From Pelagibacterium nitratireducens (GTDB taxonomy: Bacteria; Pseudomonadota; Alphaproteobacteria; Rhizobiales; Devosiaceae), in NCBI RefSeq assembly GCF_037044555.1, contig NZ_CP146275.1:2274501-2338500 (forward strand): 64,000 nt of DNA. The letters run 5' to 3'. Under the pieces are notes generated by a model. That model was not told the origin of the DNA. It made no database searches and was given only the letters and a program-made list of their open reading frames with translations. Positions within the stretch are counted from its first letter, which is position 1, and each line of letters begins with the position of its first letter. Positions 39,552 to 50,628 of the stretch are shown here, one piece after another. Position numbers and translations under genes: made by a program.

Positions 39552-40442
39552 TCAGAGCGCCAGTGGCTGCGCGCCGAGCCGCGATACCGCCCGCGCGCCT
39601 GCCGCAATGGCGGCGGCCATGGCGCCAGCCGGCGTTTCTCCGCGCAGATCGGCGGCAAGAAAGCCGGCCAGAAACGCGTCTCCGGCGCCGGTGGTATCGA
39701 CGATTTTTACCGCCTCGGCCGGCAGCGCGATGGTGTCCATACCTCTTGCGGCGTAGATGGCCCCTTCCCCGCCGCGCTTGAGCACCACACGGGGAAAGAT
39801 ATCGAGCAGAGCCGCGATCTGGCGATCAGGGTCGGTCTGCCCGGTCAGAAGTTGAGCCTCGTCGGCGTTCGGGAAGATGATTTCGGCATCTTGCGCCCAG
39901 CCAGGAAAATTGCCGGGCCCTGCCGCTGCAAGAAAGCCCGTGGAGGCCGGGTCGATGCTCACCGGAATATCTCTTGCCTTGGCCCGCGCGGCGAGCGCCA
40001 TGACGGCGGCGCGGGGTTTTACCTCGAACAGGGCGTAGCCCGAGATGTGCAGGCGATCCATGCCCTCGAGCAGTTCGAACGGCAGATCGGTTTCACCCAG
40101 ATGGGCATTGGCGCCGCGGTCGGTGAGAAAGCTGCGCTCGCCATCGGTATCGACCAGACAGATGAGCGACCCCGTGGGGTTGGCTTCGTCCCCCGCCAGA
40201 TGGGCGGCGACGCCCTGTCCTTCGAAATGACGGCCGAGCCGGACCAGGTCGGAGGCTCCGACGCGGGCGGCGAAATGGGCATCGACGCCCATTGCGGCCA
40301 GCCATACCGCCTGATTGGCGCCCGATCCTCCCGGCATCTGCCGGATTGTTGCCGGCGTATCGGTGCCGCGCGCCACCGGCCCTTCAGGCACAGCCAGAAT
40401 ATCGGTGATGACGTCGCCGACAACCAGGATACGGCCCGTCAT
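39552..40442 (-). CDS. psuK: PfkB-family pseudouridine kinase
   Basis: A 296-residue ribokinase-like enzyme. N-terminal GGSGANQAVWLAAMGVD binds the sugar; C-terminal DTTGAGDAFLAGFLAADL carries the catalytic Asp and anion hole. It follows psuG by 2 bp on the same strand, so its substrate is most probably pseudouridine, phosphorylated to pseudouridine 5'-phosphate. PfkB sequence alone does not settle the substrate; the context does. Confidence 0.85.
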   Translation of the reverse strand: MTGRILVVGDVITDILAVPEGPVARGTDTPATIRQMPGGSGANQAVWLAAMGVDAHFAARVGASDLVRLGRHFEGQGVAAHLAGDEANPTGSLICLVDTDGERSFLTDRGANAHLGETDLPFELLEGMDRLHISGYALFEVKPRAAVMALAARAKARDIPVSIDPASTGFLAAAGPGNFPGWAQDAEIIFPNADEAQLLTGQTDPDRQIAALLDIFPRVVLKRGGEGAIYAARGMDTIALPAEAVKIVDTTGAGDAFLAGFLAADLRGETPAGAMAAAIAAGARAVSRLGAQPLAL

Positions 40443-40444
40443 GG

Positions 40445-41362
40445 TCAGTGACGCTTGACGAGGGCGGCGGCGATCTGCGCGGCGACCTTGGCGTTGTTCT
40501 TGACCAGGGCGATATTGGCCACCAGCGATTTGCCGTCCGTCAATTCGAAAATGCGGTTGAGCAGATAGGGGGTGAGATCCTTGCGGGTAACGCCCTGCGC
40601 CTCGGCATCGGCGATGGCGGCGGCGATGCGCTCGTTGATCTCGTCGGCATCGAGCGCGTCGGCCTCGGGTATCGGGTTGGCGACCAGAACACCCCCAGTC
40701 ATGTTCAGCGCCGCCTGCGTCGCGATCAGGGCCGCAACCTCCTCGGGACTGTCGAGCCGGTAATCGACCCCATACCCGCTTTCGCGCGCGAAGAACGCCG
40801 GGAAGGCGTCGGTGCCATAGCCGATAACCGGAACGCCATTGGATTCAAGCACTTCTAGGGTTTTGGGAATGTCGAGAATCGACTTGGCGCCCGCGCAGAC
40901 CACCGCCACCGGGGTTTGCGAGAGTTCGGTCAGGTCAGCGGAAATATCGAATGTGGATTCGGCACCGCGATGCACGCCGCCGATCCCTCCGGTGGCGAAC
41001 ACCTTTATGCCCGCCATCGCCGCGATCTGCATCGTGGTGGCGACGGTCGTCCCGGCGGTCAGACCCTTGACCAGAATGGCCGCAAGATCGCGCCGCGAGG
41101 CCTTGGCTGCATCCAGACCCGTCTTTGCCAGTGCCTCGAGCGTCTCACCCGCGACGCCCACATGGCACCTGCCGCCGATAACCGCGATGGTGGCCGGCAC
41201 CGCGCCATTGTCGCGCACCACCTGCTCGACGGCCAGCGCCGTCTCAAGGTTCTGCGGATAGGGCATGCCGTGGGTGATGATCGTGGATTCAAGCGCCACG
41301 ACCGGCTGACCATCGGCCAGCGCGTATTTGATCTCGGGAGAGATTTCGAGGAAATCGGACAT
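40445..41362 (-). CDS. psuG: Pseudouridine-5'-phosphate glycosidase
   Basis: A 305-residue enzyme cleaving the C-C bond of pseudouridine 5'-phosphate to uracil and ribose 5-phosphate. The start at 41362 (MSDFLEISPEIKYAL) follows AAGG. Family blocks are VALESTIITHGMPYPQNLET, GGRCHVGVAGETLEALA, TGGIGGVHRGAESTFDISAD and VLVANPIPEADALD. It lies between the DUF1028 gene and psuK; all three read leftward and are probably one operon. Confidence 0.95.
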   Translation of the reverse strand: MSDFLEISPEIKYALADGQPVVALESTIITHGMPYPQNLETALAVEQVVRDNGAVPATIAVIGGRCHVGVAGETLEALAKTGLDAAKASRRDLAAILVKGLTAGTTVATTMQIAAMAGIKVFATGGIGGVHRGAESTFDISADLTELSQTPVAVVCAGAKSILDIPKTLEVLESNGVPVIGYGTDAFPAFFARESGYGVDYRLDSPEEVAALIATQAALNMTGGVLVANPIPEADALDADEINERIAAAIADAEAQGVTRKDLTPYLLNRIFELTDGKSLVANIALVKNNAKVAAQIAAALVKRH

Positions 41363-41436
41363 GAAAGGACCTTGTGCGTTTGCGCGATGCAAACCACAGC
41401 TTTGGGGGATGCGCAAGCGCCGTCGGGCCTGGCTGG

Positions 41437-42075
41437 TCAGCGCCGCGGCAGGGTGGCGAAGAAATCGGCGTAGCCGCCGGCGCGGACTTTCTCGAGAACG
41501 GTCGAGAGGTCGTCGAGGGGATTGAGAGAATAATCAATCCGCACGTCGATGGCCGGATAGGGTTGGTCGGAATAGGTCTTTATCGCCGCCGACTGGATGC
41601 CGCGCGCATCGCCGCCCGCCACATCGCCTGCGGTGAGCGCGGCAAGCAGGCGCAGCTCAAGCGGGCCGCCGGCGCGCGCAAACGCTTCGGCCATGGCGGG
41701 GACGACATCTGTGTTGGCGAGGAGATTTCCGGCGATGGCGATGTCGGTTTGCAGATGCAGGCCCACCGCCTCGGTCAGTCCCTGCCCGCTCCAGCCGGCC
41801 GTTGCGCCGGTGCGGTCCATGACGATCAACTGCCGCCGGTCGCGTTCGGAATCGGCGGTGGTCAGCGCATAGACCACGGCCTCGGCGCCCTGCCCGGCGT
41901 CCAGCGCCGCCAGCCCGTCAAAGGCATAAAGCGGGTTGGTGTAGCCTTGCGTTGCCAACGCCCCCACCCCGGCCCGCGCGTGCGGCACCAACGAGCCGAC
42001 GGCCGGCCCGCCCGTCGCCGTTGCGACACCGAACGAACCGTTTGTACGGTCATGGGCGAGAATTGAGAACGTCAT
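41437..42075 (-). CDS. DUF1028 family protein (Ntn-hydrolase-like)
   Basis: A 212-residue protein beginning MTFSILAHDRTNGSFGVATA, the characteristic DUF1028 start, followed by GGPAVGSLVPHARAGVGALATQ and NPLYAFDGLAALDAG. The family has a predicted Ntn-hydrolase-like fold and often lies near peptide ABC transporters; its reaction is unknown. It is first in a leftward unit with psuG and psuK and shares its control region with the divergent ABC transporter. Position alone suggests amide or peptide hydrolysis. Confidence 0.88.
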   Translation of the reverse strand: MTFSILAHDRTNGSFGVATATGGPAVGSLVPHARAGVGALATQGYTNPLYAFDGLAALDAGQGAEAVVYALTTADSERDRRQLIVMDRTGATAGWSGQGLTEAVGLHLQTDIAIAGNLLANTDVVPAMAEAFARAGGPLELRLLAALTAGDVAGGDARGIQSAAIKTYSDQPYPAIDVRIDYSLNPLDDLSTVLEKVRAGGYADFFATLPRR

Positions 42076-42098
42076 GGGCAGTTTTTCTCCCTGATTGA

Positions 42099-42144
42099 AT
42101 TTATAGCGATAAATGTATTGCCATGTCCATTTATGCTGATAAAT
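42099..42144. promoter_or_regulatory. Two ATTTAT-N4-ATAAAT operator-like palindromes, 30 bp apart
   Basis: Site 1 (about 42099-42114) reads ATTTATAGCGATAAAT; site 2 (about 42129-42144) reads ATTTATGCTGATAAAT. Both have perfect 6-bp arms and a 4-nt spacer, and centres 30 bp apart put them on the same DNA face. They sit between the DUF1028 start (42075) and the binding-protein gene (42354). The GntR/FCD protein encoded at 47852-48655 is the likely ligand. Confidence 0.65.
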
Positions 42145-42227
42145 TCATTAGGAGACCAGCGCCTCCAAGGCAAGCTCCGGGGGCCAAGTCAGAACCGGGC
42201 AACGATCCGGAATACGTAATTAAGTCG

Positions 42228-42336
42228 TCGCGTTCCCGAACCGAAAAAGTGGGAGCCACTTTTTCTCGGAACGCCAGAAGCTGCCAAATCGCGTTCCCGA
42301 ACCGGAAAAGTGGGGGCCACTTTTTCTGGGAACGCT
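42228..42336. repeat. Two tandem family-B palindromic repeats
   Basis: Copies at 42228-42275 and 42289-42336 each read TCGCGTTCCCGAACCG, then AAAAAGTGG or GAAAAGTGG, CCACTTTTTCT and end in GGAACGC or GGGAACGC. Each forms a hairpin with arms GCGTTCCC/GGGAACGC and AAAAGTGG/CCACTTTT. The second ends just before the ribosome site of the substrate-binding protein gene. Confidence 0.75.
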
Positions 42337-42353
42337 CCAAAGGAGAGGTTATC

Positions 42354-43907
42354 ATGAAGAAGCTTTTAGCCGGGGCCGCAATCGCCGTGCTCATGGCCGC
42401 ATCGCCGGTTGTTGCACAGACCCCGCCCAATGTCCTGATCGTGGGCCAGATCGCCGAGCCCCAGACGCTCGATCCGCAGGTTTCCACCGCGGCCAACGAT
42501 TTCCGCATTCTGACCAACATGTTTGAAGGCCTTGTGCGCTTTGCCGAAGGCACGCTGGAAGTCGAGCCGGCCCTGGCGACGGACTGGACCATTTCCGATG
42601 ACGGGCTGGTCTATACCTTCACCCTGCGCGAGGGCGTCACCTTCCACGATGGCACCCCGTTCAATGCCGAGGCGGTCAAGTTCACCTTCGATCGCATGCT
42701 CGACGAGGAACACCCCTATTACGATACCGGCCCCTTCCCGCTTTCGTTCAATTTTGCCGACGTGACCTCGGTGGAGGTGCTCGACGAGTACACCGTCGAA
42801 TTTACCCTGGGCACCCCGTTCGCGCCGTTCATGACCAATCTCGCCACCAACACCGGCGTCATCGTGTCCCCGACCGCCGTTGCCGAATATGGCGAGGATT
42901 TCGGGCGCAATCCGGTGGGCACCGGCCCGTTCAAATTCGAGGAATGGCAGTCCAACACCCGGGTCGTGGTTTCACGCAACGAGGATTATTGGGGCGATCC
43001 GGCCGGCATGGAAACCGTGGTCTTCCGCCCGATCACGGACGCCAACACCCGCGTTGCCGAAATGCTTTCGGGCGGCATCGACATCATGGTGGAAGTGCCC
43101 CCCGACAACGTCTCGATGTTCGCCGAGGACCCCAGCTTTACCGTTTATGACGCCGTTGGTCCGCACACATGGTACGTGATGCTCAACGCCAAGGAAGGCC
43201 CGTTTGCCGATCCGCTGGTGCGCCAGGCCGCCAACTACGCGGTCAACAAGGAAACGCTGGTCAACGACGTGCTTTCGGGCACTGCCGACGTATCCGCCGG
43301 CCCCATCCCCCCGGCTTTCGCCTGGGCCTATAACGATGCCGTCGAGCCCTACCCCTACGATCCGGAAATGGCCGAGCAGCTGCTCGAAGAATCCGGGGTC
43401 GAAGATCTTTCGGTCACCTTCTATGTCACCGAAGGCGGCTCGGGCATGCTCGATCCCATCCCGATGGGCACGGCGATCCAGGCCGATCTCGAAGCCGTCG
43501 GGTTCGATGTCGAAATCGAGACCTATGAGTGGAACACCTTCCTTGCGAACGTGAACCCGGGTCTCGAAGGCAAGGCGGACATGGCCGAAATGGCCTGGAT
43601 GACCACCGATCCTGATACCCTGCCCTTCCTCACCCTGCGCACCGCCGCATGGCCGGAAGACGGCGGGTTCAATTCGAGCTATTATTCCAATGTCGATGTC
43701 GACGAAATGCTCGATCAGGCCCGCATGGAAACCGATCCGGAAACCCGCGCCGCGCTCTATCGCGACGTCCAGCAGGTCGTTCATGACGATGCGCCCTGGA
43801 TCTTCGTTGCCAACTGGAAGCAGAACGCGGTCTCCACGGCCAATGTGCAAGGCTTTGAACTCCAGCCGGACTTCAACCTGCTCCTACGGACCGTGACCAA
43901 GCAGTAG
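42354..43907 (+). CDS. ABC transporter substrate-binding protein, peptide/nickel (family 5)
   Basis: A 517-residue periplasmic protein starting at the ATG at 42354 after AAAGGAGAGG. Signal peptide to about residue 22 (AASPVVAQ). Family-5 landmarks: PQTLDPQVSTAANDFRILTN, LVRFAEGTLEVEPALATDW, TFHDGTPFNAEAVKFTFDRM and NPVGTGPFKFEEW. These bind oligopeptides or other medium-sized solutes. First gene of the rightward transporter operon under the operator pair. Confidence 0.93.
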   Translation: MKKLLAGAAIAVLMAASPVVAQTPPNVLIVGQIAEPQTLDPQVSTAANDFRILTNMFEGLVRFAEGTLEVEPALATDWTISDDGLVYTFTLREGVTFHDGTPFNAEAVKFTFDRMLDEEHPYYDTGPFPLSFNFADVTSVEVLDEYTVEFTLGTPFAPFMTNLATNTGVIVSPTAVAEYGEDFGRNPVGTGPFKFEEWQSNTRVVVSRNEDYWGDPAGMETVVFRPITDANTRVAEMLSGGIDIMVEVPPDNVSMFAEDPSFTVYDAVGPHTWYVMLNAKEGPFADPLVRQAANYAVNKETLVNDVLSGTADVSAGPIPPAFAWAYNDAVEPYPYDPEMAEQLLEESGVEDLSVTFYVTEGGSGMLDPIPMGTAIQADLEAVGFDVEIETYEWNTFLANVNPGLEGKADMAEMAWMTTDPDTLPFLTLRTAAWPEDGGFNSSYYSNVDVDEMLDQARMETDPETRAALYRDVQQVVHDDAPWIFVANWKQNAVSTANVQGFELQPDFNLLLRTVTKQ

Positions 43908-43915
43908 CGGCCTTG

Positions 43916-43954
43916 GGGGTGGGGCTGCCGGCCAGGCGCTTGCGGCCCCGCCCC
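43916..43954 (+). terminator. Intercistronic hairpin after the binding-protein gene
   Basis: GGGGTGGGGC (43916-43925) pairs with GCCCCGCCCC (43945-43954) with one G-T pair. No T-tract. It may stabilise the abundant binding-protein mRNA or partly terminate before the permease genes. Confidence 0.45.
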
Positions 43955-43975
43955 ACCGCTCGCTCACCCACCAAT

Positions 43976-44074
43976 GTCATCCCGGGCGAAGACCCGGGAC
44001 CCAGTACCCGGCAGCCTTCGTGCTAATCCACAAGCGCTGCCGCATACTGGACCCCGGCTCAGGGCCGGGGTGAC
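43976..44074. repeat. Composite palindromic repeat (family A)
   Basis: GTCATCCCGGG ... CCCGGGACCCAGTA on the left and TACTGGACCCCGGC ... GGCCGGGGTGAC on the right, about 100 bp end to end. The left half and middle are nearly the same as 47729-47827. Confidence 0.8.
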
Positions 44075-44145
44075 CAAGGGGGGCATAAAGCACCGCTCGC
44101 TTCCCCAACGAAACGAGCCCCCGCCGCAAAAGAGGAAATGCAGAC

Positions 44146-45093
44146 ATGCCCGGCTATATCCTCAAACGCCTCGTCTCGGCCATTCCCGTCATCATCGGGC
44201 TGTCGGTGATCGTGTTCGGCATCATGGCGCTGATCCCCGGCGATCCGGCGCTGGCCATTCTGGGCTCATATGCCACCCCCGAAAACGTCGCCCGCATCAA
44301 TCGCGAACTTGGGCTGGACCGCCCGGTCTGGGAGCAGTATTTCGTCTGGGTGGGGAATCTGGTGCAGGGCGATTTCGGGCGCTCGTTCATCCTCAACCGC
44401 CCGGTGATCGATGAAGTGCTCGAACGCTTCGGCGCAACGCTGATCCTGGCCGGTGCCTCGCTGGTGCTGTGCTCGATCCTGGGCATTTTCGCCGGGGTCG
44501 TTTCCGCCGTCCGCCAGTTCGGCTGGACCGACCGGATCGTTACCTTTTTTGTCCTGATCGGCATTTCCACCCCCGCCTTCTGGTTGGGGCTGATCTTCAT
44601 TCTGCTGTTTGCCGTGCAATGGCGCGTGCTGCCCGCTTCGGGCATGTACGCGGTCTATGGCGGGGGCGACCTGCCCGACCTTCTGATCCATCTGATTTTG
44701 CCCGCCACCACGCTGGCCATCGTCGCCACGGGCGTCATCGCACGTCTCACGCGGGCGGCGATGCTCGAAGTGCTGCGCCAGGATTTCGTCCGCACCGCCC
44801 GCGCCAAGGGCCTCAATGAACGCGCGGTGATCTATCGCCACGCGTTCAAGGCGGCGCTGGTGTCGATCATCCCGGTGATCGGCATTCAGGCCGGGTTCGT
44901 CATGGGTGGTGCCGTTTATATCGAGACCGTGTTCCAGTGGCCGGGCATCGGGGCGATGCTGGTCAACGCCATTTCCACCCGCGACATCCTTCTGGTGCAG
45001 GGCGGCGTGCTGGTGGTTGCCGTCACATACGTGCTCATCAATCTTCTCGCCGACGTGGCGCAGGCCATTCTGGACCCGAGGCTCAAGACATGA
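44146..45093 (+). CDS. ABC transporter permease (DppB-like)
   Basis: A 315-residue inner-membrane protein with six hydrophobic segments. N-terminal signature MPGYILKRLVSAIPVIIGLS and GDPALAILGSYATPENV; the EAA-type loop is LRQDFVRTARAKGLNERAVI. The TGA stop overlaps the next ATG, so both permeases are made together. Confidence 0.94.
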   Translation: MPGYILKRLVSAIPVIIGLSVIVFGIMALIPGDPALAILGSYATPENVARINRELGLDRPVWEQYFVWVGNLVQGDFGRSFILNRPVIDEVLERFGATLILAGASLVLCSILGIFAGVVSAVRQFGWTDRIVTFFVLIGISTPAFWLGLIFILLFAVQWRVLPASGMYAVYGGGDLPDLLIHLILPATTLAIVATGVIARLTRAAMLEVLRQDFVRTARAKGLNERAVIYRHAFKAALVSIIPVIGIQAGFVMGGAVYIETVFQWPGIGAMLVNAISTRDILLVQGGVLVVAVTYVLINLLADVAQAILDPRLKT

Positions 45094-46880
45094 CCCAGGC
45101 AATCGCGACCGCAGACAATGCGCCTTCGTCGGCCCGGCTCTCAAGCTGGAGCCTGTTGCTCAACAACCGGCTGGCAGCCGGCGGGCTCGTCGTTCTCGTT
45201 CTGATCGGCGCCATGGCGCTGCTCGCCCCGCTCCTGCCCATCCCCGACCCTGACGCCACCCTGCCCGCCAACCGGCTGCAGCCGATCTTTTCGGATGGCC
45301 ATTTTCTGGGCACCGACCATCTGGGCCGCGATATTCTCGCCCGGCTCATCTGGGGTTCGCGGGTCTCGATTGCCGTGGGGCTATCCGCCACGCTGATTGC
45401 GGCGCTGATCGGCTCGCTGATCGGGCTGGTTTCGGGTTACGCGCGGGGCATCACCGACAACATATTGATGCGCGGCATCGATATGCTGATGGCCTTTCCC
45501 TATATCCTGCTCGCCCTGGCCATCGTTGCCGTGCTCGGGCCGGGGCTGCTCAATGCGCTTTACGCCATTGCCGTCGTCAATATCCCCTTCTTTGCCCGTA
45601 ACGTTCGCGGCATCACCGTGGGGCTGGCCAGCCGCGAATTTGTCGATGCGGCCCGGCTTTCGGGCAAATCGCATACGGCGATCCTGTTTTCCGAAGTGCT
45701 GCCCAACGTGTTGCCGGTCATCGTCATCACAATGTCGACGACCGTGGGCTGGATGATCCTTGAAACCGCAGGGCTGTCCTTCCTCGGGCTCGGCGCGCAA
45801 CCACCCCAGTCCGATCTGGGCTCCATGCTGGGCGAAGGCCGGCGGCTATTGTTCAATGCGCCCCATGTTTCGATCATTCCCGGGTTGATGATCTTTGCCA
45901 TCGTCATGAGCATCAACCTGCTGGGCGATGGCGTCCGCGACGTGCTCGATCCGCGCCTGCGGGCCGGCGATCTCACCCGCCCGCTTTCGGTGACGCGGAT
46001 CGAGCGCAAAAAGGCTGCCGAGTCCCAGGACAAGGCAACTGCCATTCTCGACGTCCGCAATCTCGAAACCAGCTTTCAGCGCGGCCGGGCCACCATCCCG
46101 GCGGTCAAGGACATCTCCTTTACCCTCAACAAGGGCGAATGCATGGGGCTGATCGGGGAGTCCGGGTCGGGCAAGTCCGTCACTGCCCTATCGCTGCTCG
46201 GGCTTGTCGCCTCTCCGCCAGGCATCATCACCGGGGGTTCGGTATCCATCGAGGGCGAGGACGTCTTCTCGCGGTCCGAAAGCGGCATCCGGGCGCTGCG
46301 CGGCTCCAAGGTCGCCTATGTGTTTCAGGACCCGTTGACCACGCTTCATCCGCTCTACAGGGTCGGTGAGCAGATCGCCGAAGCCATCACCACCCATCAA
46401 CCGGTCGGCAAGAGTGAAGCCAAAGAGCGGGCTATCGCTTTGATGGAACAGGTGGGCATCCGCGATGCCGCCGAGCGGGTCGATGCCTTCCCGCACGAAA
46501 TGAGCGGCGGGCAGCGCCAGCGCATCGGCATTGCCATGGCGCTGGCCAACGATCCTGACATCATTATCGCCGACGAACCGACAACGGCTCTGGACGTCAC
46601 CGTCCAGGCCAAAATTCTCGACCTGCTTCAGAATTTGCGCCGCGAACGCGGCATGGCGCTGTTGCTCATCACCCACGATTTCGGGGTCGTCGCCCAGGTG
46701 TGCGACCGGGTCGCGGTGATGAAGGACGGCGTTATCGTTGAAAGCGGGACGACGCCGGACGTGCTGCGCGACCCCCAGCACGACTACACCAAAAAGCTCA
46801 TCGCCTGCGTGCCCGAACTGGGCAAGGGCAAGGATTTCCTCGCCACTGTCCGGCCCCTGTTTGCGGAGGGCAAACCATGA
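45090..46880 (+). CDS. Fused ABC permease (DppC-like) and ATPase (DppD-like)
   Basis: A 596-residue fusion. Residues about 20-290 are a DppC-type permease (NRLQPIFSDGHFLGTDHLGR, VDAARLSGKSHTAILF); after a short linker (RIERKKAAESQDK), residues about 310-596 are a nucleotide-binding domain with Walker A GESGSGKSVT, Q-loop YVFQDPLTTLHPLY, signature MSGGQRQRIGIAM and Walker B IIIADEPTTALD. Both halves are intact and in frame with no sign of sequence damage. Fusion enforces 1:1 permease-ATPase stoichiometry. Confidence 0.94.
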   Translation: MTQAIATADNAPSSARLSSWSLLLNNRLAAGGLVVLVLIGAMALLAPLLPIPDPDATLPANRLQPIFSDGHFLGTDHLGRDILARLIWGSRVSIAVGLSATLIAALIGSLIGLVSGYARGITDNILMRGIDMLMAFPYILLALAIVAVLGPGLLNALYAIAVVNIPFFARNVRGITVGLASREFVDAARLSGKSHTAILFSEVLPNVLPVIVITMSTTVGWMILETAGLSFLGLGAQPPQSDLGSMLGEGRRLLFNAPHVSIIPGLMIFAIVMSINLLGDGVRDVLDPRLRAGDLTRPLSVTRIERKKAAESQDKATAILDVRNLETSFQRGRATIPAVKDISFTLNKGECMGLIGESGSGKSVTALSLLGLVASPPGIITGGSVSIEGEDVFSRSESGIRALRGSKVAYVFQDPLTTLHPLYRVGEQIAEAITTHQPVGKSEAKERAIALMEQVGIRDAAERVDAFPHEMSGGQRQRIGIAMALANDPDIIIADEPTTALDVTVQAKILDLLQNLRRERGMALLLITHDFGVVAQVCDRVAVMKDGVIVESGTTPDVLRDPQHDYTKKLIACVPELGKGKDFLATVRPLFAEGKP

Positions 46881-47677
46881 GCAACGCCATCGTCGTAAAA
46901 GACCTGGTCAAAACCTTCGGGGGCAACCGCACCCTGTTTGGTGGCAAGAGCCACGCGGTTCAGGCCGTCAAGGGCGTGACGTTCGAGCTCAAACAGGGCG
47001 AAACGCTGGCCATCGTGGGTGAAAGCGGATCGGGTAAATCGACAATCGCGCGCATGCTGGTCGGGCTCGAAACACCGACCTCGGGCAGCGTCGAAATCGG
47101 CGGCAAAGCCTATGATGCGCTGCAATCGGAAGGCTCGCGGGCCTTCGGGCAGATGATCCAGTATGTGTTTCAGGACCCCGTCGCTTCCTTGAATCCACGC
47201 AAGACGATAGACAGGATTCTTGACGTGCCACTCAACCTGTTGCGCGGCTATGATGCCGACAGGCGCAAGGCGCGAAAACGCGACCTGCTCGACGCGGTGC
47301 AGATGCCCAAGGACACGCTGGAGCGCTATCCGCACGAATTTTCCGGCGGCCAGGCCCAGCGCATCGCCATTGCCCGCGCCCTGGCGGCGGAAGCGAAAAT
47401 CATGGTTCTGGACGAACCGGTCTCGGCGCTCGACGTTTCGGTGCAGGCGCAGGTTCTCTTGCTGCTCGACGATCTCAAGCGCGAGTTCGGGCTGTCCTAT
47501 TTGTTCATCAGCCACGATCTGGCGGTCGTGGAATCGGTCTCGGACCGGGTCGCGGTCATGTATCTGGGCGAGATGGTGGAACTGGACACCGCCGAGAAAC
47601 TGTTTGCCGCACCGGGTCATGACTATACAAGGGAGTTGATTGCCAGCGCGCCCCGGCTGGCCGCAGCAGCCCAGTAA
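46877..47677 (+). CDS. ABC transporter ATPase (DppF-like)
   Basis: A 266-residue ATPase with Walker A GESGSGKSTIARMLVGLE, Q-loop QYVFQDPVASLNPRKTI, signature FSGGQAQRIAIARALA and Walker B IMVLDEPVSALDVS. It overlaps the fused gene by 4 bp and is the second, non-identical ATPase of the peptide-type importer. Confidence 0.95.
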   Translation: MSNAIVVKDLVKTFGGNRTLFGGKSHAVQAVKGVTFELKQGETLAIVGESGSGKSTIARMLVGLETPTSGSVEIGGKAYDALQSEGSRAFGQMIQYVFQDPVASLNPRKTIDRILDVPLNLLRGYDADRRKARKRDLLDAVQMPKDTLERYPHEFSGGQAQRIAIARALAAEAKIMVLDEPVSALDVSVQAQVLLLLDDLKREFGLSYLFISHDLAVVESVSDRVAVMYLGEMVELDTAEKLFAAPGHDYTRELIASAPRLAAAAQ

Positions 47678-47728
47678 GATGTTCCCGACAATCGCGATAT
47701 CCCCAATCATCCCATCCTCCCCACCGCC

Positions 47729-47827
47729 GTCATCCCGGGCGAAGACCCGGGACCCAGTAACCGGCAGCGTCGGCATTTCAGCCGCGAGACCTCAGTGTAC
47801 TGGACCCCGGCTCAAGGCCGGGGTGAC
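47729..47827. repeat. Composite palindromic repeat (family A)
   Basis: Same build and orientation as 43976-44074: GTCATCCCGGG ... CCCGGGACCCAGTA, a unique middle, then TACTGGACCCCGGC ... GGCCGGGGTGAC. It fills the space between the ATPase gene and the GntR gene. Confidence 0.8.
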
Positions 47828-47851
47828 CGGGTGGGGGGTGGAGCAAAAGTT

Positions 47852-48655
47852 ATGAACGCCCTAGACACCCCAATCCCCCTCCGCCGCAAGCGCACCGACG
47901 AAATCGTCGATGCGATCAAGAAGACCATCATCGAGCACGGGCTGCAGCCGGGAGACCGGCTGCCCCAGGAGCGCGAATTGATGGAGCAGTACACAGCGTC
48001 CAAGGGCACGATCCGCGAAGCGCTCAAATCGCTCGAAGTGCAGGGGCTGATCCGCACCCGCACCGGGCCGGGCGGCGGGGCCTTCATCGACACCATGTCG
48101 GAAAACCGGGCGATGAGCCTTTTGTCCAACTATCTGTTCGCCAAGACGGTGACGATTGGCGATATCTACGCGCTGCGCAAGGTGCTCGAACCGCTCGTTG
48201 CCGTGAGTGCGATGGCCAACATGAACGAAATGGCCTACGAGCGGCTCAATGGCATCATCGCAATCTACGATCACGAACCTGCCGATGCCCAGGAGCGCTG
48301 GGACCAGCGCATGGCCGAACTCGATTTCCACGCCGTGGTGGCAGAATACGCCGACAACGCCCTGCTCGCCTTCACCTGCCGCTTCCTGCAGCGGCTTTTG
48401 AAGGATCTGGCCGTCTGTCACGACATCTATGTCCAGCCCAAGCCCGTGCTGCGTGCGCAGGGGATTGAATACCAGCGCAAGATGATCGCCGCCATGCAGG
48501 CGGGCAATGCCGACGCCGTTCACAAGATCATGTCGGATCATATGGCCTACGCCGAGCGTTCCATGCTCGACCTGCAGGCCGAGTTGAACGGGGATTTCCT
48601 CCACGACCCCGTGGCCCGCGGTGGAACCGAGAAACGCAAAAAGAGCATTAAATGA
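47852..48655 (+). CDS. GntR-family regulator with FCD domain
   Basis: A 267-residue regulator from the ATG at 47852. N-terminal winged helix: RRKRTDEIVDAIKKTIIEHG, GDRLPQERELMEQYTASKGT, IREALKSLEVQGLIRTRTGP. The C-terminal all-helical FCD domain has a metal/ligand His-rich set (DFHAVVAEYADN, MSDHMAYAERSM). FadR-subgroup members usually repress nearby transport and catabolic genes until an acid or sugar acid binds. The paired operators at 42099-42144 are its likely targets. It overlaps the M42 peptidase gene by 4 bp. Confidence 0.92.
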   Translation: MNALDTPIPLRRKRTDEIVDAIKKTIIEHGLQPGDRLPQERELMEQYTASKGTIREALKSLEVQGLIRTRTGPGGGAFIDTMSENRAMSLLSNYLFAKTVTIGDIYALRKVLEPLVAVSAMANMNEMAYERLNGIIAIYDHEPADAQERWDQRMAELDFHAVVAEYADNALLAFTCRFLQRLLKDLAVCHDIYVQPKPVLRAQGIEYQRKMIAAMQAGNADAVHKIMSDHMAYAERSMLDLQAELNGDFLHDPVARGGTEKRKKSIK

Positions 48656-49740
48656 TCGACACCGGATACCTCCAGCGCTGTCTGGAGGACCTCGTCAACA
48701 CCCCCTCACCGGTCGGGATGACCGAACGCGCCGCCGTCAAGGTCGCCGCATGGCTCGAAACCATGGGCTATCAGGTCAGCTACACCCGGCGAGGCGTCCT
48801 CAGCGTCACCATCGGCAATGGCCAACCGCGACGGGCGCTGGCGGCCCACATCGATACGCTCGGGGCCATGGTCATCGGCTTCCATCCCAACGGACGTCCA
48901 AAGCTGCGCAACACCGGAACATGGGCGGCGCGGTTTGCCGAAGGGGCGCGCTGCACGATCTTTACCGATACGGGAGAATTGCGCGGCACCATTTTGCCGC
49001 TCAAGGCATCGGGCCATCTGTTCAACACCGAAGTCGATACCCAACCGGCCGATTGGGACAATCTGGAAGTGCGGATCGACGCATTTTCGGAGGCGGACGG
49101 AATATTTCCGCAAAGTTCAGCAATGTCGGGTCACCGAGAGCACAAGTCCACACCTTTTGGCGTCAATGTTGGCGATGTTGTCGCCATTGATGCGCAGCCC
49201 GAATTCCTCGAAAACGGCTTCATCGTCTCGCGCCATCTCGACGACAAGGCGGGCGTTGCGTGCCTGCTCGCGGCGCTCAAACACTTCTCCGACGACGGTA
49301 TTTCACCCTCCGTTCCTGCCCAGGTGATGTTCACGATTTCCGAGGAAGTGGGAATCGGGGGAACGCACGGATTTGGTGAGCAGGTTCAAGAACTTGTGGC
49401 CGTCGACAACGGCGTCACCGGCCCCGGCCAAACCACAAATGACGCCGCCGCAACCATCGCTTTCCGCGATCGGACCGGCCCGTTCGATCTGCCCATCACA
49501 AGGCACCTTCTCGCGCTGGCCCAGGCCAATGACATCGCCCATGTGCGCGACACGTTCCGCTCCTACCGCTCCGATAGCGCAGCGGCAATCGATGCGGGCT
49601 GGGATCTGCGGGTCGGACTGATCTGCTTTTCGCTCGACGCCTCGCATGGCTGGGAGCGTACGCATATCAAGTCACTGGAAGAACTGACGAAATTGATCAT
49701 CGCCTATATCGGCAGCGAACTGGTTCCCCTGCCCGTCTGA
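48652..49740 (+). CDS. M42-family metallopeptidase, resembling the NAGGN-system peptidase
   Basis: A 362-residue cytosolic aminopeptidase-like protein. Metal ligands are visible in AAHIDTLGAMV, SRHLDDKAGVA, ISEEVGIGG, VAVDNG and DASHGWERTH. The sequence (WAARFAEGARCTIFTDTGEL, GTILPLKASGHLFNTEVDTQ, PEFLENGFIVSRHLDD) follows the TIGR03106-type M42 peptidase usually seen beside N-acetylglutaminylglutamine amide genes, but neither asnO- nor ngg-like genes are here. An insertion around residues 150-167 (GIFPQSSAMSGHREHKS) is longer than I recall in relatives. Coupled to the GntR gene and peptide importer, it probably trims imported peptides. Confidence 0.85.
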   Translation: MIDTGYLQRCLEDLVNTPSPVGMTERAAVKVAAWLETMGYQVSYTRRGVLSVTIGNGQPRRALAAHIDTLGAMVIGFHPNGRPKLRNTGTWAARFAEGARCTIFTDTGELRGTILPLKASGHLFNTEVDTQPADWDNLEVRIDAFSEADGIFPQSSAMSGHREHKSTPFGVNVGDVVAIDAQPEFLENGFIVSRHLDDKAGVACLLAALKHFSDDGISPSVPAQVMFTISEEVGIGGTHGFGEQVQELVAVDNGVTGPGQTTNDAAATIAFRDRTGPFDLPITRHLLALAQANDIAHVRDTFRSYRSDSAAAIDAGWDLRVGLICFSLDASHGWERTHIKSLEELTKLIIAYIGSELVPLPV

Positions 49741-50628
49741 ATGGAACGCGCACCGCTTATCCCCGTTATCGCCCTATCTGTCATAATGGATGGGCGACCG
49801 GTGGTCACGCGCGCGGAATCGAAACAGGAGCAGGGCCCGTTTCCTTTGGGTCTGTTGCGCGGGGCGGGCGGCGCACTGATTTTTGCGCTGCCCATGCTTA
49901 TGACCATGGAGATGTGGCAGCTTGGCATGACGCTGGACCGCTGGCGTCTGCTTGTTCTGCTTGTCACCGGCTTTCCGTTCATGATGCTGCTTTCGCGCGA
50001 GATCGGGTTCGAAAGCACCCGCGACTGGCGCCAGGATCTGCGTGATGTGACCATCGCCTATGGCCTCGGCATAGTCACCAGCGCAGCCGTCATGACCGTT
50101 CTGGCCATTTTCGGCAATCCGGCCAGCCTGAGCGAAACGGCGGGCATGATCGCAATTCAGACCTTTCCAGCGGCGCTGGGCGCCATGCTGGCCCGCGGCC
50201 AGTTCGGCGACGATTCCGAACCGGCAAAAAGGGACGAAACCTTCAACGGCCAGATGCTCATCATGGCTGCGGGAGCGCTTTTTCTCTCGCTCAACGTGGC
50301 GCCAACCGAAGAGATGCAACTTATCTCTTTCCGCATGACTCCGTGGCACGCGCTGGCGCTCATCCCGTTGTCTTTGGCGCTCATGCATGCCTTTGTCTTT
50401 GCTGCCTCCTTTGCCGGCGGCAGCGAAATCTCGCCTGAGACGCCGTGGTGGAGCGCGTTCCTGCGCTTTACGGTTTCGGGCTATGCGATGGCGCTGGCAG
50501 TCAGCCTGGCCAGCCTGTGGCTGCTCGGCCAGCTTGATGGGATGAGCTTGCAGCGCGCACTGCGCGTCACCGTCGTCCTCGGCTTCCCAGCAGCCATCGG
50601 GGCCGCCGCGGCCCGACTGATTCTTTAG
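49741..50628 (+). CDS. TIGR02587-family integral membrane protein
   Basis: Up to 295 residues; the ATG at 49741 directly abuts the M42 stop but has no clear ribosome site, and a later ATG at 49786 is possible. About seven hydrophobic segments, with GGALIFALPMLMTMEMWQLG as family hallmark. TIGR02587 proteins are typically next to TIGR02588 proteins, as here. Function unknown. Confidence 0.82.
   Translation: MERAPLIPVIALSVIMDGRPVVTRAESKQEQGPFPLGLLRGAGGALIFALPMLMTMEMWQLGMTLDRWRLLVLLVTGFPFMMLLSREIGFESTRDWRQDLRDVTIAYGLGIVTSAAVMTVLAIFGNPASLSETAGMIAIQTFPAALGAMLARGQFGDDSEPAKRDETFNGQMLIMAAGALFLSLNVAPTEEMQLISFRMTPWHALALIPLSLALMHAFVFAASFAGGSEISPETPWWSAFLRFTVSGYAMALAVSLASLWLLGQLDGMSLQRALRVTVVLGFPAAIGAAAARLIL

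Follow-up and report, generated by a model that had tools for sequence, protein, structure and literature searches.

A DUF1028, ABC importer and FCD regulator cassette conserved across two bacterial classes lies beside separable pseudouridine genes in Pelagibacterium nitratireducens

The genes considered here occupy positions 39,552 to 49,740 of a 64,000-nucleotide stretch of the Pelagibacterium nitratireducens genome (assembly GCF_037044555.1, contig NZ_CP146275.1, positions 2,274,501 to 2,338,500; the whole stretch is called the window) and recall several described systems: the psuK-psuG pair for pseudouridine catabolism in Escherichia coli, the ATP-binding cassette (ABC) importers DppABCDF and GsiABCD, and the asnO-ngg-M42 operon of Pseudomonas, which is described as engaged in the synthesis of N-acetylglutaminylglutamine amide (NAGGN) (PMC8070244). 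The window resembles E. coli psuK-psuG in having a full-length PsuG with an aligned lysine and a PfkB-family kinase gene 2 nt downstream of psuG; it differs in its kinase, which by model score is remote from that of E. coli, and in the adjoining importer, which lies outside that system. Like DppABCDF and GsiABCD, the window importer combines a solute-binding protein (SBP) of family SBP_bac_5 with two Opp-type permease domains and two ATPase domains; it differs by the fusion of permease C with an ATPase, which appeared as one continuous match in most related cassettes too, and by the absence, in the alignment, of the Arg/Asp clamp of DppA, and its cassette differs by a divergently transcribed gene for a DUF1028 protein with an N-terminal-nucleophile (Ntn) hydrolase fold and by an FCD regulator of its own. 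A sequence-only reading of the window had the importer, DUF1028, an M42 peptidase and psuGK act together on a compound that contains pseudouridine and may be conjugated to a peptide. Comparison across genomes favors instead, at a probability of about 75%, two independent units side by side: a cassette for scavenging an end-blocked peptide or amide under its own FCD regulator, and psuG-psuK with its own promoter.

The separability of the two units emerged from a survey of 151 genomes (the window's own and 150 relatives), in which psuG was found in 99 genomes, DUF1028 in 66, and both in 45. psuG lay within 6 kb of DUF1028 on the same contig in seven of these 45, all from the window's genus; the other 38 had no such pair within 10 kb, the two genes being at least 78 kb apart on one contig in 15 genomes and on different contigs in 23. 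Within the genus, direct DUF1028-psuG adjacency was seen in 3 of 12 genomes (the window's own, G006 and G008) and was broken or absent in the other nine: an ABC cassette sits between the two genes in G007, G009, G010 and G011; the psu unit and the importer unit are on different contigs in G003 and G005; psuG-psuK stands beside window-like T02587 and aldehyde dehydrogenase (ALDH) flank genes with no DUF1028 match in G001; psuGK is present without a DUF1028 match in G002; and the importer unit is present with no psuG match in G004. The neighborhood on which the sequence-only reading relied is not conserved for its psu half, and the joint pseudouridine-peptide pathway was rejected on this linkage. 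Several splits of the rpoB tree were weakly supported, and a firm order of gain and loss was not drawn. The intervening cassette, of FecCD/Peripla_BP_2 type, was observed in L071 (7600-12600), L074 (8461-11874), L075 and L076; in the copy of G009, the one of four that was scanned, three genes were assigned by Pfam (ATPase, FecCD permease, Peripla_BP_2 protein), and the fourth had no Pfam match.

All nine genes of the sequence-only reading, with their order, strands and coordinates, were confirmed in what is a Pelagibacterium-type genome; the features of the locus are as follows.

39552..40442, minus strand: PfkB-family kinase, putative PsuK (PF00294); neighboring unit, outside the cassette
40445..41362, minus strand: psuG, pseudouridine-5'-phosphate glycosidase (PF04227, 438 bits); neighboring unit
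41395..41417, minus strand: promoter-like element CTTGC-N14-TGTG, 5' of psuG
41437..42075, minus strand: DUF1028 protein (PF06267, 208 bits); Ntn-hydrolase fold, Thr2 at nucleophile position
42099..42114, no strand: putative operator 1, ATTTATAGCGATAAAT; one of two genome-wide motif copies, conserved
42129..42144, no strand: putative operator 2, ATTTATGCTGATAAAT; 30 bp from operator 1
42230..42274, no strand: dispersed palindromic repeat, copy 1, probably not an operator; core at 18 genome places
42291..42335, no strand: dispersed palindromic repeat, copy 2; same core
42354..43907, plus strand: family 5 SBP (PF00496, 347.7 bits)
44146..45093, plus strand: Opp-type permease, B subunit (PF00528, PF19300)
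45090..46880, plus strand: permease C/ATPase fusion, 596 aa (PF12911, PF00528 and PF00005 in one frame)
46877..47677, plus strand: second ATPase (PF00005)
47852..48655, plus strand: GntR/FCD regulator, presumed binder of the twin operators (PF00392, PF07729)
48652..49740, plus strand: M42 metallopeptidase (PF05343; TIGR03106, 418.6 bits)

The M42 gene is directly followed by a gene for a TIGR02587-family membrane protein of unknown function (49741-50628; 270 bits, cut-off 183.7). An alternative in-frame ATG for the SBP at 42123 falls between both operators and is an unlikely start.

The divergent unit of DUF1028, importer and FCD regulator is conserved in Alpha- and Gammaproteobacteria, including Enterobacterales, with M42 as its variable member. 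From relatives, 100 loci surrounding a psuG or DUF1028 match were fetched, 63 of which gave DUF1028 matches; a cassette was counted where DUF1028 occurred with an SBP more than 55% identical to that of the window, and its genes were counted by tblastn matches (open reading frame (ORF) calls at GC-rich loci were rough, and some antisense ORFs were miscalled). By this measure 27 of the 100 loci hold the cassette, every one of them divergent and with the FCD gene, and 16 with M42. A scan of named species, one genome per species and limited to the best 80 of 480 confirmed DUF1028 loci, which favors near relatives, gave 56 cassette loci, again all divergent, with the FCD gene in the stretch of 51 and M42 in that of 26; the two locus sets overlap in species. 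The named hosts include Devosia, Rhizobiaceae, Providencia, Erwinia, Pantoea, Serratia, Ewingella, Rahnella and Halovibrio. Plasmids carry the cassette as well: it is complete on an Agrobacterium plasmid, and on a Klebsiella michiganensis plasmid (L293) it lies between IS26 copies with a short DUF1028; no psu gene is annotated in either stretch. The sequence-only reading therefore holds in its grouping of DUF1028, the family 5 importer, the FCD regulator and M42, which are conserved together, and is not supported where it had psuGK act with them. In Providencia vermicola (L197, 138-2822), a pyridoxal phosphate (PLP)-dependent enzyme of the PALP family adjoins the M42 gene of the cassette; we take it to be D-serine dehydratase-like.

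The control region between the divergent transcripts holds two distinct palindrome pairs, and the identical-arm pair named in the sequence-only reading cannot be assigned to either; the one pair is specific to the locus, the other is dispersed. The motif ATTTAT-N4-ATAAAT has two copies in the whole 3.85-Mb genome, both in the control region (42099 and 42129), and its reversed pattern has no match genome-wide; when the search was confined to the window and one mismatch was allowed, 100 shuffles averaged 0.03 matches, and a single one of them likewise reached two. The strict operator occurs twice, at a spacing of 29-32 bp, in 23 of the 27 relative and 49 of the 56 named cassette loci; it is single in three and seven, respectively, and lacking in one and none. 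At loci without an SBP more than 55% identical, the motif was found in 0 of 73 relative and 1 of 24 named loci, the exception being Chimaeribacter (L204), which retains DUF1028 and the FCD gene. In Chimaeribacter L204 and L207, DUF1028 and the FCD gene are the only cassette members present, and they stand head to head. The FCD regulator is presumed to pair with the ATTTAT-N4-ATAAAT operators because both are co-conserved with the cassette. The longer palindromes at 42230-42274 and 42291-42335 have the form GCGTTCCCGA...AAAAGTGG...CCACTTTT; their core, AAAAGTGG-N3-CCACTTTT, is present at 18 genomic sites (12 exact and six with one mismatch), which suggests a repeat scattered over the genome and not an operator. 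As an operator candidate they were rejected, being dispersed in the genome and absent from the corresponding intergenic stretch of G008, a close relative; G009 and G011 have one similar AAAAGTGG-type copy, on the opposite side of the operators from that in the window.

The pseudouridine genes form a neighboring unit with a promoter-like element of its own. The window PsuG matches the E. coli PsuG structure 4gij over its full length (339.8 bits), and one of its lysines, which we take to be catalytic, aligns with the residue that is alanine in 4gim; by family and structure match, the identity of PsuG is secure. The kinase is a putative PsuK by context: its homolog adjoins psuG in 30 of 43 fetched psuG loci, whereas its best NCBIfam match is a ribokinase model, no NCBIfam equivalog scores above its cut-off, and the pseudouridine-kinase model PRK09850 gives 29.9 bits against a cut-off of 540. 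The pseudouridine kinases of E. coli and Arabidopsis share only about 21% identity (PMC9247573). The element CTTGC-N14-T[AG]TG occurs within 200 nt upstream of psuG at 10 of the 11 loci from the genus and at none of the 33 from elsewhere (single-base shuffles gave a mean of 0.045 of the 44 loci, and one at most), and it is kept whatever gene precedes psuG, be it DUF1028, the FecCD cassette, T02587 or another. In two other Devosiaceae (L139, 10966-15096; L123, 3209-7238), psuG-psuK lies near an opposite-strand ABC transporter that resembles spermidine/putrescine systems, with an SBP_bac_8 binding protein in L139; other Devosiaceae psuG loci have an ATPase match at a similar place.

These observations bear on two ways in which the neighbors might still be connected. 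A single pathway that runs from the importer, DUF1028 and M42 to psuGK would account for DUF1028 and psuG being same-strand neighbors in the window and two of its 11 congeners, and for their lying within 6 kb of each other in four more; yet psuG was matched in the stretch of only six of the 27 relative cassette loci, all in the genus, and of five of the 56 named ones, all Pelagibacterium-type (L177-L181, of which L177 is the window's own species or nearly so), which leaves 21 and 51 cassettes with no psuG match. With each unit occurring apart from the other in G001 and G004, and with the conserved element upstream of psuG, a joint pathway is very improbable. A regulatory capture without shared chemistry, in which some Pelagibacterium psuGK are read through from the DUF1028 promoter and partly obey the FCD regulator, would agree with the short same-strand gap and the lack of a strong terminator discussed below, with the adjacency in three genus genomes and with the co-directional intervening cassette in four more; the promoter-like element that psuG conserves, and the adjacency being broken or absent in most of the genus, speak against it, and it is rather unlikely, if less so than a shared pathway.

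What the cassette acts on is suggested by its hydrolase and by its binding protein. The DUF1028 protein has the fold of an Ntn hydrolase with Thr2 at the nucleophile position (structure 2imh of the family); Thr2 is present in 63 of 63 DUF1028 sequences, its codon directly following ATG in 58, TTG in one and a sense codon in four. With this fold and an N-terminal Thr, the protein is predicted to be processed and active as an Ntn hydrolase. It is alike in fold to the taspase/asparaginase and proteasome kinds of Ntn hydrolases, and its Thr2 occupies the position that the N-terminal residue has in many proteasome beta chains; the identity to taspase-1 is 13-14%. We know of no DUF1028 protein with an experimentally tested substrate. 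The importer is a family 5 ABC importer, a single operon encoding SBP_bac_5, the Opp permeases and both ATPase domains, and its SBP is nearest to HbpA/DppA/GsiB-type proteins. DppA presumably grips the peptide ends by one Arg and one Asp, and these roles are supported by the DppA sequences in 8z1y and 8z1z, which differ at exactly the two sites. In pairwise alignment the window SBP has Ser/Gly in place of the Arg and a gap in place of the Asp, and lacks the DppA-type dipeptide clamp; the loops at these sites, EGGSGMLDP and MAEMAWMT.DPD, show 93-100% conservation of the positions named across 90 SBPs from both classes. Because the clamp is missing and the loops are near-invariant, one shared ligand without ordinary free peptide ends is suggested.

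Among candidate ligands, NAGGN, an osmolyte dipeptide blocked at both ends, or a close relative of it scavenged from other bacteria, would fit several clues. The window M42 passes TIGR03106, the model for the M42 of the NAGGN system, with 418.6 bits against a cut-off of 397.75, and its best-scoring structure, 2gre, is annotated as a deblocking aminopeptidase. In both Sinorhizobium meliloti records examined (L259, 3794-16018; L292), the NAGGN amidotransferase and ngg directly follow an orthologous importer (SBP 70%, permease 78%) and FCD gene (45%); the gene for the NAGGN M42 is located upstream near this operon, and one of the two records has a strict operator copy. The permease is present in 64 Sinorhizobium plasmid records. 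The SBP of this Sinorhizobium operon carries the same EGGSGMLDP and MAEMAWMT.DPD loops, and the missing Arg/Asp clamp suits a ligand without free termini. Scavenging rather than synthesis would also agree with the window's own genome, where TIGR03104 (the NAGGN amidotransferase) gave two matches of 40 and 21.9 bits, below the cut-off of 570.1 (the ngg model was not searched); NAGGN synthesis in this genome was rejected on that score. In contrast, the window M42 and three other cassette M42s (430-457 bits) score lower on TIGR03106 than two members from NAGGN loci (575 and 601), the Sinorhizobium stretches have no DUF1028 match, unlike the window cassette, and the Sinorhizobium association may be a single event. 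Of the 12 NAGGN loci found in the 151 genomes, none has this importer nearby and one has a different Opp-type importer, and NAGGN genes were near none of 13 importer relatives from the class; NAGGN as a general partner of the importer was rejected on these counts, and NAGGN as the substrate is a minority reading, to be held tentatively.

The 13 relatives come from 385 genomes drawn from the class, 14 of which, the window's own included, had the SBP at E <=1e-150; no psuG match was found in any of the 13 stretches. An amidase of the hydantoinase/carbamoylase family stands beside the importer in nine of the 13 (counted from ORFs read by eye and then scanned), and TIGR01879 was passed by all 10 scanned, these nine and the one in Halovibrio. 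The genes for DUF1028, a carbamoylase-type enzyme and M42 are consecutive in Halovibrio and, as judged by eye from the sequence, in Natronospirillum. An N-carbamoyl or ureido compound, such as an N-carbamoyl amino acid of hydantoin origin, might accordingly be proposed as substrate; such enzymes were not seen next to the cassette in the members of the genus and family that were inspected, where neighbors were not scanned against family libraries, and the enzyme family includes an entry named deacylase, so that carbamoyl chemistry is not implied and this substrate is doubtful. A conventional importer of dipeptides or oligopeptides, accompanied by peptidases, would be expected from a family 5 SBP and Opp-type permeases near GsiB, DppA and HbpA, and from M42 as an aminopeptidase family; it appears no likelier, since the DppA clamp residues are replaced by near-invariant loops and since the Ntn hydrolase is constant in the cassette, M42 not. 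At a Hafnia locus an amidase lies about 2.5 kb beyond the FCD gene, and importer homologs on Peteryoungia and Allorhizobium plasmids had no DUF1028 match. What the substrate clues share is the hydrolysis of amide bonds in a small molecule that is imported; none was seen that points to a nucleoside.

As a caveat, several observations weigh against two independent units with one end-blocked ligand. DUF1028 and psuG are co-directional in the window, 74 nt apart, and no convincing terminator was found nearby on their strand, only a 5-bp stem inside the 3' end of DUF1028 (such terminator-like sites in the region numbered 13, against 9.8 expected); with this short gap and no strong terminator, read-through could put psuGK under cassette control in the genus. 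Of the 38 genomes counted as unlinked, 23 were judged by different contigs, and an assembly gap could hide a link. The clamp argument draws on a pairwise alignment with a gap at the site concerned, and the 90 SBPs, with the window included and some species twice, were picked at >=55% identity, which favors invariance. M42 is missing from 11 of the 27 relative cassette loci. Among the 13 class-level relatives, DUF1028 was matched in five and not in eight, the strict operator was found in four, and M42 was matched in none of the stretches; neither the enzyme set nor the operator is therefore fixed outside the cassette proper.

On the favored reading of two independent units, psuG-psuK would serve standard pseudouridine catabolism and would have come to lie beside the cassette by rearrangement within Pelagibacterium. 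The importer would take up a small peptide-like or amide-bonded solute, probably with blocked ends. Without substrate, the FCD protein would occupy both operators and repress both divergent transcripts; a basal level of importer would admit the compound, and the compound or a product of it would free the operators of the regulator. DUF1028, with Thr2 as the nucleophile after Met removal, would cleave one amide bond, and in part of the species M42 or a carbamoylase-family hydrolase would cleave the remaining bonds, yielding amino acids and ammonia.

psuGK represents a known pathway. The cassette resembles other operons for peptide or amide uptake and hydrolysis, but has a fixed core and operator. 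A literature search that covered few subscription papers found no paper on DUF1028, alone or with pseudouridine, and, among the matches listed and by their titles and opening abstract lines, no description of the cassette in work on psuG and ABC transporters, pseudouridine kinase or operons, NAGGN, carbamoyl compounds with GntR regulators, or rhizobial pseudouridine. It is possible, though improbable as matters stand, that the cassette is a mobile NAGGN scavenging set by which non-producers take NAGGN as a nitrogen and carbon source; if so, it would provide an uptake and breakdown route for an osmolyte whose synthesis is known, DUF1028 would be a new proteasome-fold amidohydrolase acting on the amides of NAGGN with the FCD protein as a dedicated sensor, and Sinorhizobium would recover its own NAGGN with the same importer. 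More generally, a misleading link between pseudouridine and peptides is removed. The DUF1028 family is widespread and its structure has been solved, but to our knowledge it has no assigned function; it gains a testable context as part of a cassette in which the divergent importer is constant, the regulator nearly so and the operator defined, and which occurs in two bacterial classes as well as on plasmids.

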